A stretch of 64,000 bases of DNA from Streptomyces sp. NBC_00690 (GTDB taxonomy: Bacteria > Actinomycetota > Actinomycetes > Streptomycetales > Streptomycetaceae), in the NCBI RefSeq assembly GCF_036226685.1, contig NZ_CP109009.1, positions 2,294,001 through 2,358,000 on the forward strand. Direction: 5' to 3'. Of this stretch, positions 6,375 through 42,464 are shown piece after piece. Made by a program: the position numbers and the translations under genes. Below the pieces are notes generated by a model that saw only the letters and a list, made by a program, of their open reading frames with translations, was not told the DNA's origin and searched no databases. Within the stretch, counting starts at the first letter, position 1. Every line of letters starts with the position of its first letter.

Positions 6375-6405
6375 GGGTCCGAAGGCGTAGCCGGCCTTCG
6401 GACCC
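6375..6405 (-). terminator. Strong rho-independent terminator ending the 243-aa protein/tRNA-mimic RNA unit
   Basis: A perfect 12-bp stem (6375-6386 with 6394-6405), 7-nt loop, and a run of U residues on the minus-strand transcript (positions 6369-6365) make this one of the clearest terminators in the window. It lies 36 nt beyond the second structured RNA module, so the protein gene and both RNA modules can form one transcription unit. Confidence 0.9.
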
Positions 6406-6441
6406 TTGGTTTCCGCCCATCTTGCACGCCGGCGCATTGAA

Positions 6442-6549
6442 GAACCCGAGTCAGTCATTATGTCGTCGCGTCCTGCCTTTGGACCACCGCACATCGAGCT
6501 GTGCGGACCGGACTTGAACCGGTATTTCGACGTCCGAGGGCTCGGGCCC
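6442..6549 (-). ncRNA. tRNA-mimic RNA module 2: permuted cloverleaf, Y RNA-like
   Basis: Read on the minus strand, the order is as follows. Outer helix 5' strand 6549-6541; 8-nt internal-loop side; anticodon-stem 3' strand CGTCG (6532-6528); variable loop AAAT; T-arm ACCGG-TTCAAGT-CCGGT (6523-6507); acceptor 3' strand CCGCACA (6506-6500); 6-nt loop; acceptor 5' strand TGTGCGG (6493-6487); T8-G9; D-arm GTCC-AAAGGCA-GGAC (6484-6470); G26; anticodon-stem 5' strand CGACG (6468-6464); 13-nt internal-loop side; outer helix 3' strand CTCGGGTTC (6450-6442). Acceptor (7 bp), T (5 bp), D (4 bp) and anticodon (5 bp) stems are fully Watson-Crick; the outer helix is 9 bp with two G-U pairs. U8, A14, A15/U48, G18-G19, A21 and the T-loop bases match canonical tRNA. 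No encoded CCA and no U33. The topology matches YrlA-type Y RNAs or a permuted tRNA gene. Confidence 0.75.
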
Positions 6550-6595
6550 GGTCGATCCGACGATCGGCGGAGAATGCTGAACCTAGAGGAATAAT

Positions 6596-6709
6596 CTGAG
6601 TCTGACGGCGGCTGCCTCTACCGGACTTGGGCTACCGCGACCCGTACAACGAGTGCCGCGGGGAGGATTCGAACCTCCACTGGAACCGCACCATCACGAC
6701 AAGCCTCAG
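6596..6709 (-). ncRNA. tRNA-mimic RNA module 1: permuted cloverleaf, Y RNA-like
   Basis: The architecture is the same as module 2. Minus-strand order: outer helix CTGAG (6709-6705) with CTCAG (6600-6596); 15-nt internal-loop side; anticodon-stem 3' strand GCGGT (6689-6685); variable loop TCCAGT; T-arm GGAGG-TTCGAAT-CCTCC (6678-6662); acceptor 3' strand CCGCGGC (6661-6655); 13-nt loop; acceptor 5' strand GTCGCGG (6641-6635); U8-A9; D-arm GCC...GGC (6632-6614) whose loop holds CCGGTAGA; A26; anticodon-stem 5' strand GCCGC (6612-6608); 7-nt internal-loop side. The acceptor pairs over 7 bp with one G-U, the T-stem is perfect, and the anticodon stem has 5 bp with one terminal G-U. A conventional tRNA using the D-arm of this module and the T-arm of module 2 pairs poorly (4 of 7 acceptor pairs, no anticodon stem), which supports the permuted reading. 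Confidence 0.75.
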
Positions 6710-6732
6710 TTTCAGCTTGCGCTCCTCGCGCA

Positions 6733-6758
6733 CCCCGCCCGCTCAACGGCGGACGGGG
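6733..6758 (-). other. 10-bp hairpin just after the 243-aa gene
   Basis: Positions 6733-6742 pair perfectly with 6749-6758 (one G-U) around a 6-nt loop, 20 nt past the stop codon. It could be a processing signal, an mRNA 3'-end stabiliser or a partial terminator separating the mRNA from the RNA modules. Two small hairpins (GCGC-GAGGA-GCGC and a 5-bp stem from 6719) follow before module 1. Confidence 0.6.
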
Positions 6759-6777: not shown

Positions 6778-7509
6778 TCAACCGAACAGGTAGCCGAAAA
6801 CTGCGTCACCCACCCGCTGGTCGGTGACATCGGCGCCATTGGCCTCCTCGCGGGAGAACTTCACGGCCTGCTGCAACTTCTCCACCCGTTCCAGCAGTTC
6901 GTTCACCCGCCGCGCGGGCAGTGCGCCGGAGAACTTCACCGTGGTCCAGTAGCCGACCGGAATGTCCTCGTAGTACACCTCGACCTGCGCCGGGTGCTTC
7001 TCGGTCGCCTCCGCCTTCACATGGTTGCGCGGGACCTTCTTCGTACGCACCGTACGGACGACTTCCGTCTTCCAGGCGTCGGTCGAAGGGTCCTGCGTCC
7101 AGGACTCGGACGCGTCAAGCACGGGCAGCTTGCGCACGAAGGTGTTGACGTCCGTGAGCTGCTTCTCCAGGAAGAGCAGATAGGAGACGGGCACGTCACT
7201 CACGAGCACCCGCCCGTCCACGGAGACGTCCGCGCGGGCGGTGCAGTTGGCCCAGTCCTTGGTGGCGGTCACATCGAAGAGCCGGGACAGCGTCTTCGCC
7301 GTGTCGCGCAGTACATCCTCGGCCTTGACCTGCACCCTCGTCGACTCGGGCGGCAGCTGCTCGCCCTCCTCGTCCTTCGGCTGGTAGGTACGCGAGATAC
7401 CGGCGAGCAGCGCAGGTTTCTGAAGCCCGTGATGGGCGGCGGTCAGGTCCTGATGGGTCTTGGACTTGACGCCCTTCTCCACTGCGATGATCTGGTTTAG
7501 TTTCGCCAC
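6778..7509 (-). CDS. Conserved actinobacterial protein of unknown function beside tRNA-mimic RNAs
   Basis: This is a 243-aa soluble protein, likely starting at a GTG at 7509 (MAKLNQIIAVEKGVKSK...). A TTG at 7518 is an in-frame alternative; neither has a good Shine-Dalgarno sequence, so leaderless translation is possible. It is rich in charged residues and predicted helices at both ends. The middle holds an alternating hydrophobic region (VPVSYLLFLEKQLTDVNTFV) and a conserved-looking block VPRNHVKAEATEKHPAQ-VEVYYEDIPVGYWTTVKF. I recall this sequence type as an uncharacterised actinobacterial and actinophage family (possibly the one numbered DUF7873; unsure). I see no P-loop, nuclease, ligase KxDG or vWA/TROVE motif, so it is not Ro60/Rsr and not RtcB. 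Immediately downstream lie two tRNA-mimic modules and one strong terminator, suggesting that it binds, processes or is regulated by those RNAs (inference). Confidence 0.7.
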   Translation of the reverse strand: MAKLNQIIAVEKGVKSKTHQDLTAAHHGLQKPALLAGISRTYQPKDEEGEQLPPESTRVQVKAEDVLRDTAKTLSRLFDVTATKDWANCTARADVSVDGRVLVSDVPVSYLLFLEKQLTDVNTFVRKLPVLDASESWTQDPSTDAWKTEVVRTVRTKKVPRNHVKAEATEKHPAQVEVYYEDIPVGYWTTVKFSGALPARRVNELLERVEKLQQAVKFSREEANGADVTDQRVGDAVFGYLFG

Positions 7510-7654
7510 GTCGATCAAGCTATCAAGACCATCTTGTGGGCTCGACCGATTATCGCGATCCCTGTCGGATCGTCATCTTCCGATCGCTCTCCGGATCGTC
7601 GTCCCGGGGTTGCACGACCTCTCACCCTTCAACGTCCCTTGGGGAGCAAGCACC

Positions 7655-8252: not shown

Positions 8253-8972
8253 TCAGGCCCCCGTGCGACGGGCCCGGTGGAAGAGCACGGCCCCACCGAG
8301 CATCAGGGCTGCTCCCACGGGCACCGCATATCCGATCCCGTCGGCACCGGTCTGGGCCAGGGCGTCGTCCGTCTCGGTGTCCACTGAGACCACGGGCTTG
8401 GTGGGCTTCTCGACGGCCCGGGTGACGGGCTTCTCCACCGGCTTGGTCGGCGGGACCACCGGCTTCTCCACCACGGGCGGAGGCTTGGGGCCCGTGGGCT
8501 CGGACGGCCCGTTGACCGAGGTGTTGCCGATCGCGGGGTTGCCGATGCCGACGACGTTCACGGAGTTGCCGCTGACGTTCACCGGGAGATCGATCGGCAG
8601 CTGAATGCCGTTGCCGGAGATCACACCGGGGGAACCCTGGGCGATACCGCTGGCGACGGCGCCTCCCGGAGCTTGGCCGTTGCTCGACGTCTGGCCGCCG
8701 GGAGCGGTGCTGCCGGTCTGAGTAGCACCGCCGGAGGTGTTCGCGCAGGTATTGCCCGCGGTCGGGTTGAGCAGTCCGACCACGTTGACCGTGTTCCCGC
8801 AGACGTTGAGGGGGACGTGGATCGGAAGCTGGATCGTGTTGCCCGCGATCACACCCGGCGAGCCGATCGCCGCCCCATTGGCGGTCGAGTCGGCGTGTGC
8901 GTGTCCCGCCAACGCCAGCGCGCCGCCCGTGAGCATCACGGTGGCGAGCCCCTTTCGATGAAGCTGCCTCAT
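8253..8972 (-). CDS. Long chaplin with two chaplin domains and a sortase signal
   Basis: This 239-aa secreted cell-surface protein belongs to the long-chaplin (ChpA/B/C-like) class, which coats aerial hyphae and spores with amphipathic fibrils. It has a signal peptide (residues 1-28, cleavage after HAHA). Chaplin domain 1 covers about residues 31-76 with paired cysteines in LNVCGNTVNVVG and NTCANT. Domain 2 covers about 108-155, with Ser at both cysteine positions (VNVSGNSVNVVG, NTSVN). A Pro/Lys/Val-rich spacer follows, then the sortase motif LAQTG, a hydrophobic span and an RARR tail. The sortase would anchor it covalently to peptidoglycan; no sortase gene is in the window. The ATG at 8972 follows a purine-rich AAGGCAGGA stretch. 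The loss of both cysteines in domain 2 is unusual. Confidence 0.92.
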   Translation of the reverse strand: MRQLHRKGLATVMLTGGALALAGHAHADSTANGAAIGSPGVIAGNTIQLPIHVPLNVCGNTVNVVGLLNPTAGNTCANTSGGATQTGSTAPGGQTSSNGQAPGGAVASGIAQGSPGVISGNGIQLPIDLPVNVSGNSVNVVGIGNPAIGNTSVNGPSEPTGPKPPPVVEKPVVPPTKPVEKPVTRAVEKPTKPVVSVDTETDDALAQTGADGIGYAVPVGAALMLGGAVLFHRARRTGA

Positions 8973-42391: not shown

Positions 42392-42464
42392 GCCCCGGTA
42401 GCCCAGCGGTAGAGGCAATGGTCTCAAACACCATCCAGCGTGGGTTCGAATCCCACCCGGGGTA
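42392..42464 (+). tRNA. tRNA-Leu-like with CAA anticodon but a short variable loop
   Basis: This 73-nt cloverleaf has acceptor GCCCCGG/CCGGGGT (one terminal G-U), U8-A9, D-arm GCCC-AGCGGTAGA-GGC, anticodon stem ATGGT/ACCAT with loop CTCAAAC (anticodon CAA at 42425-42427, reads UUG), variable loop CCAGC, T-arm GTGGG-TTCGAAT-CCCAC and discriminator A73. No CCA is encoded. By anticodon it is tRNA-Leu(CAA), but it lacks the long variable arm of bacterial Leu tRNAs, so it is class I. Its D-arm (U-A-G-C-C-C-A ... GGTAGAGGCA) closely resembles that of tRNA-mimic module 1 at 6.6 kb. Charging identity is therefore uncertain. Confidence 0.9.

Follow-up and report, generated by a model that had tools for sequence, protein, structure and literature searches.

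Directly downstream of a gene for a DUF7873 protein in Streptomyces sp. NBC_00690, and on the same strand, lie two circularly permuted tRNA-like modules set within a longer conserved element that is predicted to be a structured RNA of ~390 nt. The evidence is computational and comprises the structure itself, covariation, a tRNA-type tertiary pair, linkage to DUF7873 genes in Streptomyces and in phages, and a distribution independent of Ro60. As far as sequence can tell, the most economical reading is that of a new RNA family with DUF7873 as its partner and tRNA-mimic arms as its docking sites; more specifically, I consider it fairly probable that this RNA would act as a Y-RNA-like scaffold that does without Ro60. 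The DNA studied, called the window throughout, is a 64-kb stretch of this genome (NZ_CP109009.1 2,294,001-2,358,000; assembly GCF_036226685.1), and all positions follow its own numbering. A preliminary description had placed two tandem tRNA mimics at 6442..6709; both modules do lie inside that interval, but the element is larger, with conserved sequence spanning from ~6758 to a terminator-like hairpin at 6375-6405. Neither the DUF7873 gene nor the conserved RNA surrounding the modules figured in that description. The features of the element are the following.

6778..7518, minus strand: DUF7873 protein gene (246 aa from a TTG start), candidate partner; Pfam PF25283, E 1.4e-119
6733..6758, minus strand: inverted repeat CCCC...GGGG just past the DUF7873 stop, probable 5' hairpin; sequence
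6719..6731, minus strand: hairpin GCGC-GAGGA-GCGC; four pairs unchanged in 33/33 aligned Streptomyces
6694..6716, minus strand: 5' strand of a long helix with module 1 at its tip; RNAalifold columns 171-193
6608..6689, minus strand: module 1 (M1), permuted tRNA-like domain; sequence, structural scan, covariation; covariance models R2 74.2 bits (in training) and R1 33.4 bits (not in training)
6576..6599, minus strand: 3' strand of the M1-carrying helix, with conserved motif GAUUAUUCCUCUAG; alignment, RNAalifold
6541..6549, minus strand: 5' arm of the outer helix of module 2; alignment A6 columns 371-379, compensatory changes
6464..6532, minus strand: module 2 (M2), permuted tRNA-like domain; sequence, structural scan, covariation; R1 70.9 bits (in training) and R2 44.4 bits (not in training)
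6442..6450, minus strand: 3' arm of the outer helix of M2; A6 columns 515-523
6425..6441, minus strand: conserved 3' segment UUCAAUGCGCCGGCGUG; Streptomyces alignment
6375..6405, minus strand: hairpin resembling an intrinsic terminator, with a T run behind it, likely 3' end; terminator scan

Two permuted tRNA-like modules

Read directly from the minus strand, M1 (6689-6608) and M2 (6532-6464) share one arm order, namely the 3' strand of the anticodon stem (AC3'), variable region, T-arm, acceptor 3' strand, loop, acceptor 5' strand, U8, D-arm and the 5' strand of the anticodon stem (AC5'). The first part of M1 consists of AC3' GCGGU, variable region UCCAGU, T-arm GGAGG-UUCGAAU-CCUCC, acceptor 3' strand CCGCGGC and a 13-nt loop, and the second of acceptor 5' strand GUCGCGG, U8, D-arm GCCC..AGGC (three pairs) and AC5' GCCGC; M2 reads, in the same order, CGUCG AAAU ACCGG-UUCAAGU-CCGGU CCGCACA GCUCGA UGUGCGG U G GUCC AAAGGCA GGAC G CGACG. 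All the helices described earlier are present, with two G-U pairs in M1 (U2-G71 and G27-U43) and Watson-Crick pairing throughout, without G-U, in M2, and the tRNA signature bases U8, A14, A15-U48, G18G19 and UUCRA are found in both modules, as had been claimed. Each module therefore has the permuted arm order and the tRNA tertiary signature bases by which a YrlA-type domain is recognised.

A structural scanner that requires a UUCRA T-arm, an acceptor formed across a 3-40-nt loop, U8, a D-arm with A14 and GG, and an anticodon stem recovers exactly M1 and M2 from the 64-kb window and nothing else, and 60 dinucleotide shuffles (7.68 Mb, both strands counted) yield no module at the strictness of M1 and M2 and one at a loose setting, which bears out the claim of two tandem permuted mimics. 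The two modules are also recognised by each other's covariance model (33.4 and 44.4 bits, against 24.1 bits for the window's real tRNA region), and since it is R2 that gives 24.1 bits on this region, at 42430, the cross-matches are in part a matter of general tRNA likeness. At curated thresholds the sole Rfam match in the window is a tRNA at 42392. On M1 the Rfam YrlA model reaches 19.5 bits (E 0.18; cut-off 69 bits) and the Rfam tRNA model E 1.7, so that the covariance score, a check put forward in the preliminary description, stays near background with existing models; the folding energy of 6430-6740 is likewise ordinary (z -0.34). ARAGORN calls a tRNA-Leu(gag) at 6653-6739 on the minus strand, a candidate that was rejected, as it contains only the T-arm and acceptor 3' strand of M1 together with upstream sequence, and this false call may enter genome annotations.

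Covariation and the tRNA fold

M2 is present in all 110 Streptomyces loci scanned. When modules are aligned by sequence (alignments A4 and A5, restricted to modules whose loop does not exceed 12 nt, whose AC strands pair fully and whose similarity is <86%, with those of the window added), 20/21 pairs of M2 and 19/20 pairs of M1 change on both sides, and 92.5% and 93.4% of cells, respectively, are paired, versus 39-51% with the partners slid; in the anticodon stems the paired share on these alignments is no more than 67.6% and 75.4%, partly owing to misalignment. Compensatory changes in homologues, the other check that had been proposed, are in other words abundant. Because the aligned modules had been chosen by a scanner that itself requires pairing, two less biased tests were added.

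Alignment A6 holds 33 of the 110 Streptomyces loci, chosen for diversity and aligned by sequence alone, and from it RNAalifold, given no structure, returns the T-arm, acceptor, D-arm and anticodon stem of M2 as well as its outer helix (371-379/515-523), and 29 of the 79 consensus pairs have one or more rows in which both partners differ; the outer helix of M2 that had been proposed is thus present, at 6549-6541/6450-6442, with compensatory changes. The long helix carrying M1 is also predicted, and the arms of M1 itself fall outside the consensus because 15 A6 rows have no M1. The second test used the tertiary pair 15-48, of which the scanner takes no account: it is A-U in 97, G-C in 54 and something else in 2 of 153 distinct viral modules, with neither A-C nor G-U among them; the association (Fisher p 2.6e-42; control pairs 16-48 and 15-47, p 1) is inflated by relatedness, the viral acceptors being diverse nonetheless (106 distinct 3' strands). 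In Streptomyces the same pair is almost fixed (n=133: 127 A-U, 1 G-C, 3 A-C, 2 other).

The larger predicted RNA

Around the modules, conservation and covariation do not always coincide. Of the inverted repeat behind the DUF7873 stop codon, the inner three pairs alone enter the RNAalifold consensus (columns 127-129/145-147), with changes on both sides; the hairpin at 6719..6731, its four pairs being unchanged in every aligned row, is conserved without covarying; and the M1-bearing helix is nearly invariant and so has no covariation support. The motif GAUUAUUCCUCUAG on its 3' strand reads YGCUCYA in most relatives, and a 'midA' form is found in 109/110 Streptomyces regions, and the UUCAAUGCGCCGGCGUG segment looks, by eye, like the counterpart of viral CUUAAACGCCG..GGCGUG. 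The distance between M1 and M2 is 71-76 nt in 74/74 Streptomyces and 68-87 nt in 38/41 viral two-module loci, and the latter also share GCUCYA between the modules (25/41; shuffle mean 1.5), UUAAACG after M2 (22/41; shuffle mean 0.2) and CUSARRCU before M1 (20/41; shuffle mean 0.2), motifs that were picked by eye after reading the sequences and compared with shuffles preserving base composition only.

M1 is absent from 15 of the 33 aligned Streptomyces (A6 rows L022-L029, L034, L049, L084, L093, L098, L106 and L109), where the helix is closed by a short loop, and M2 is found in 33/33. Two modules are therefore not essential, and since M1 is dispensable, its helix then short-looped and M2 constant, the tRNA-like domain behaves as a plug-in at the tip of a helix. 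A scan restricted to sigma-70-type promoters finds one promoter-like site on the minus strand, at 7576-7549 upstream of DUF7873, and none between the gene and the modules, so co-transcription of the RNA with DUF7873 is likely.

Linkage to DUF7873 in Streptomyces and in phages

BLAST of the DNA gives matches in 67 of 150 same-genus genomes, two of them weak and without DUF7873, and the protein itself is found in 69 of the 150. Of the 110 Streptomyces loci, 30 were picked up through their similarity to the RNA and are therefore set aside when linkage is judged; the remaining 80 were chosen by protein, being the best 80 of at least 535 DUF7873 matches (protein identity 89-95%), and every one of them is followed on the same strand by a module no more than 900 nt away. 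The covariance model R1, built from 33 M2 modules, gives 85 matches of at least 58.8 bits over the 150 genomes, and every one of them lies within 1.7 kb of DUF7873 (68) or of TROVE (17; 18 TROVE places were used in this proximity test); the 69th DUF7873 genome has a linked match at 58.0 bits, and one match of 58.5 bits (G090) was left out of the count. Many genomes also give matches of 55.8-58.4 bits; five of these were inspected and proved to be tandem tRNA-Asn genes (L303-L306, L308), the remainder being assumed to be the same, so that score alone is no proof of kinship, and tandem tRNA-Asn genes that imitate permuted tRNA in covariance searches are an artefact to guard against. One might suppose, given that such pairs fool the model, that the modules of the window are themselves a chance similarity or the debris of tandem tRNA genes; however, the tRNA-Leu(gag) call covers only part of M1, the shuffle control is zero, and conservation and covariation are strong, by which this reading is refuted and its probability reduced to almost nothing.

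In a phylum sample of 296 genomes DUF7873 occurs in this genus only (6 genomes), and it was also matched in one control genome, Deinobacterium chartae, and in 4 of 72,556 plasmid records. It is found as well in 73 of 50,697 phage records, with hosts among Vibrio, Gordonia, Rhizobium, Klebsiella, Serratia, Arthrobacter, Pseudanabaena, Rhodococcus and Microcoleus, and in the 60 rows listed the product is labelled 'hypothetical protein' or the record is unannotated. One or two modules follow the gene in 9 of 11 named phage loci, phage PA-SR01 has a weaker candidate, and Microcoleus phage My-WqHQDG (L116) has a DUF7873 gene without a recognised adjacent module; covariance-model matches ~1.8 to 2.1 kb downstream of the latter gene may be tRNA-related. 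In IMG/VR, 68 of the best 80 of 291 contigs carry a module at most 900 nt downstream on the same strand, the density being 98 matches per 69.8 kb there and 4 per 950 kb in the rest of these contigs, and 53 of 64 further, more distant contigs do so too (60 per 56.7 kb, against 3 per 763 kb in the rest). The range scanned past the gene was 0 to 900 nt for the first set and -50 to 900 nt for the second; 14 re-listed contigs were dropped before the second count, as was L126, a duplicate of L001, and near-identical viral contigs were kept unmerged (142 distinct module strings in IMG/VR). In total the scanner finds a module in 121/144 contigs, and with covariance models added the count is 139/144, though the 18 rescued among the 23 that the scanner missed may include tandem-tRNA artefacts; 5/144 contigs have no strong adjacent module by either method.

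This phage distribution invites the thought that the element is a decoy by which phages counter host defence: lacking an anticodon loop but mimicking tRNA, it would titrate host enzymes targeting tRNA, and Streptomyces would later have kept it. Phages of proteobacterial, actinobacterial and cyanobacterial hosts carry it, tRNA genes are also listed in 7/11 of the phage stretches, and CCA is encoded in many viral modules (see below). Against this stand its occurrence in 69/150 same-genus genomes and the 89-95% protein identity across the best 80 named loci, which suggest a role of its own in Streptomyces, and DUF7873 has no PADLOC match, although PADLOC would not list anti-defence factors; I regard the decoy as an unlikely primary explanation.

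The DUF7873 protein

The true start of the gene may fall slightly inside the listed TTG. DUF7873 is a sizeable family (7114 members in one search), yet little can be attached to it: five of its proteins gave no match in PHROGs, PADLOC or NCBIfam, no other Pfam family was convincing across 89 members, and no relative among solved structures (PDB) was found by sequence. Five residues are invariant in 89 sequences (T172, H175, A177, A226 and N227). Synteny gave no function for DUF7873, since each of its six neighbours recurs within 4 kb in just 2 to 23 of 80 loci; one gene upstream of it, for a chaplin-domain (ChpA-C) protein (8253-8972, minus strand), has a homolog in 6/80 other loci. No paper on DUF7873 or describing its RNA was found in the literature searched, most subscription journals lying outside it. 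Any proposal that DUF7873 and the RNA form a ribonucleoprotein has to contend with a protein of near-neutral charge (34 K+R, 36 D+E) in which no RNA-binding domain is recognised and for which sequence reveals no structural relative, and with the fact that the linkage could also mean a cis-acting 3' UTR.

Relation to Ro60 Y RNAs

One account describes tRNA-mimic bacterial Y RNAs as Ro60 partners and states that the basal stem of YrlA binds Rsr, its tRNA-like domain binding PNPase and serving as a substrate for DusA and TruB (PMC8394870), and according to another the structure 6CU1 of YrlA can be superposed on tRNA once a circular permutation is allowed for (PMC11472068). The DUF7873-linked RNA is like YrlA (Rfam RF02553) with Ro60/Rsr in its permuted tRNA-like domain and in being an RNA gene near a protein gene, and unlike it in its different adjacent protein, lack of the Y-stem motifs of Ro60-linked loci, larger conserved core and, in many viral copies, encoded CCA. 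The likeness of the modules can be seen from R1, which was trained on DUF7873-linked modules only and matches Ro60-linked ones with a best score per locus of 57.1-67.5 bits at 12 loci (L291-L302, chosen because R1 matched there), two modules being R1-positive in 11 of them and one in L299. The Rfam YrlA model matches all 12 (E 1e-9 to 3e-3) and 6 of 8 viral relatives (E 1e-4 to 3e-3), in every case below its 69-bit cut-off, and together with the R1 matches this agrees with the earlier proposal of tRNA mimicry in the YrlA permuted order. Y RNAs are probably under-annotated in Streptomyces, with tandem YrlA-type modules below the Rfam cut-off in 11 of the 12 Ro60 loci.

Are these, then, simply the Y RNAs of Ro60? 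Their module type and topology equal those of the Ro60-linked RNAs of the genus. However, there is no TROVE/Ro60 match in the source genome, and 28 of the 69 DUF7873 genomes have no TROVE match: TROVE is found in 80/150 same-genus genomes, 41 having both, 28 DUF7873 only, 39 TROVE only and 42 neither (Fisher p 0.19), so the two are independently distributed over the 150 genomes. Furthermore, two Y-stem motifs, GGYGCG..GGC..UACUU and GAUCUNNGG, read from the same 12 Ro60-linked loci, were sought around the modules in stretches of equal length. The first is present in 11 of those loci and the second in all 12; the counts are 0 and 3 for 121 IMG/VR loci and 0 and 0 for the 110 Streptomyces regions linked to DUF7873, and a DUF7873-RNA motif conversely occurs in 109/110 of the latter and in 0/12 Ro60-linked loci. 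For this genome the suggestion of a true Ro60-binding Y RNA is largely refuted, and I consider it very improbable.

Encoded ends

The preliminary description had seen no encoded CCA, which is true of the window modules, but N-CCA directly follows the acceptor 3' strand in 86/153 of their viral relatives (versus 36/1815 for CCA at other loop offsets), and U stands at -1, before acceptor position 1, in 104/153. The viral CCA and U-1 look like retained tRNA-end signals; in Streptomyces modules CCA is found in 14/130. U33, by the numbering used here, is present in 1/130 Streptomyces and 53/153 viral modules and absent from both window modules, no conserved anticodon was seen in the modules, and the alanine identity pair G3-U70 occurs in 1/130 and 2/153, respectively. 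With neither U33 nor G3-U70 kept, neither a decoding tRNA nor a tmRNA fits, and the earlier judgement that a decoding tRNA was the less likely option holds up.

Under the decoding option the modules would be genuine permuted tRNA genes, whose transcripts would have their ends joined in the anticodon loop, perhaps by RtcB, and the acceptor loop excised. The gene order matches, the viral CCA and U-1 would suit such maturation, and the source genome (9.17 Mb in two contigs) encodes RtcB elsewhere. Set against this are the counts for U33 and the missing conserved anticodon just given, the anticodon stem of M2, which runs on into a conserved outer helix, and the short hairpin that replaces M1 in 15/33 Streptomyces, all of which leave permuted tRNA genes highly unlikely.

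The same ends can be accommodated by a cis-acting element, in which the modules would sit in the 3' UTR of the DUF7873 mRNA and serve there as tRNA-like signals, either for processing, as targets of RNase P and 3' processing enzymes, or for autoregulation, as sites through which DUF7873, by binding, would regulate its own production, with no ribonucleoprotein acting in trans. The modules do lie past the stop codon on the same strand, with the only promoter-like site upstream of the gene, and in viruses N-CCA and U-1 are kept despite the 106 distinct acceptor 3' strands. However, conservation extends beyond the modules, with core helices and internal and 3' motifs recurring from phages to Streptomyces, and CCA is mostly absent from the Streptomyces modules. 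I find such a role doubtful as the whole explanation; it and the phage decoy are mutually compatible.

A proposed particle without Ro60

Returning to the scaffold reading, I infer both ends of the RNA, its co-transcription, its binding by DUF7873 and the recruitment of a tRNA-handling factor, which would fit together as follows. A structured noncoding RNA of ~390 nt would be made as part of the DUF7873 transcript and ended at the hairpin at 6375-6405, its core helices carrying one or two tRNA-mimic domains of the YrlA kind. DUF7873 would be a dedicated partner, probably binding the conserved non-tRNA core, and the tRNA-like arms would recruit a cellular tRNA-handling factor, much as the YrlA domain does PNPase in Ro60 particles, so that the DUF7873-RNA particle would work like a Ro60-Y RNA particle without Ro60. 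A broader version, which I hold more tentatively and put slightly below even, is that DUF7873 and its RNA constitute a new class of ribonucleoprotein that was spread by phages and settled in Streptomyces, its mimics with processable CCA ends engaging the tRNA or ribosome machinery independently of Ro60.

If true, a general permuted-tRNA docking domain would serve unrelated proteins, and YrlA would be just one case of it. Finding the same permuted tRNA fold beside a different protein uncouples the mimic from Ro60 and raises the question of what the mimic binds by itself; it also suggests a role for DUF7873, whose thousands of members have no known function, and for gaps in phage genomes that carry no annotation. 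With M1 naturally absent in some species, the modules arranged in tandem and CCA ends encoded, the system lends itself to direct tests by genetics and biochemistry.

Comparison with other tRNA-like RNAs

In the permuted tRNA genes of algae and archaea the 3' half precedes the 5' half and the two are joined at the acceptor end. The DUF7873-linked modules share this order of halves and differ in having no conserved anticodon loop or U33, in sitting inside outer helices and in the optional nature of M1. mascRNA and menRNA are not permuted, which distinguishes the DUF7873-linked modules from these human RNAs, whose Rfam match in the window is at background (E 0.59). GOLLD is larger than the ~390-nt DUF7873-linked RNA, and the latter, unlike GOLLD, is tied to a protein gene; neither the window nor eight viral loci gave a GOLLD match. 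A tmRNA has a tRNA-like domain of acceptor and T-arm, the acceptor piece being placed first in two-piece permuted forms, and the DUF7873-linked modules have a tRNA-like acceptor and T-arm too, and in addition, unlike tmRNA, a D-stem. A permuted tmRNA was rejected as a candidate, with G3-U70 nearly absent and a separate tmRNA in the genome.

For the two RNAs compared here from published accounts, PMC11693755 presents mascRNA and menRNA as tRNA-like elements inside a longer RNA and matured by RNase P, and a title cited in PMC9569102 reports GOLLD as a large structured RNA in Mycobacterium tRNA arrays. Gordonia phage Phendrix (MN096369.1), one of the phages with DUF7873, has a tmRNA match of 89 bits (L112:2063-2591) that lies above the Rfam cut-off and is absent from the feature table.
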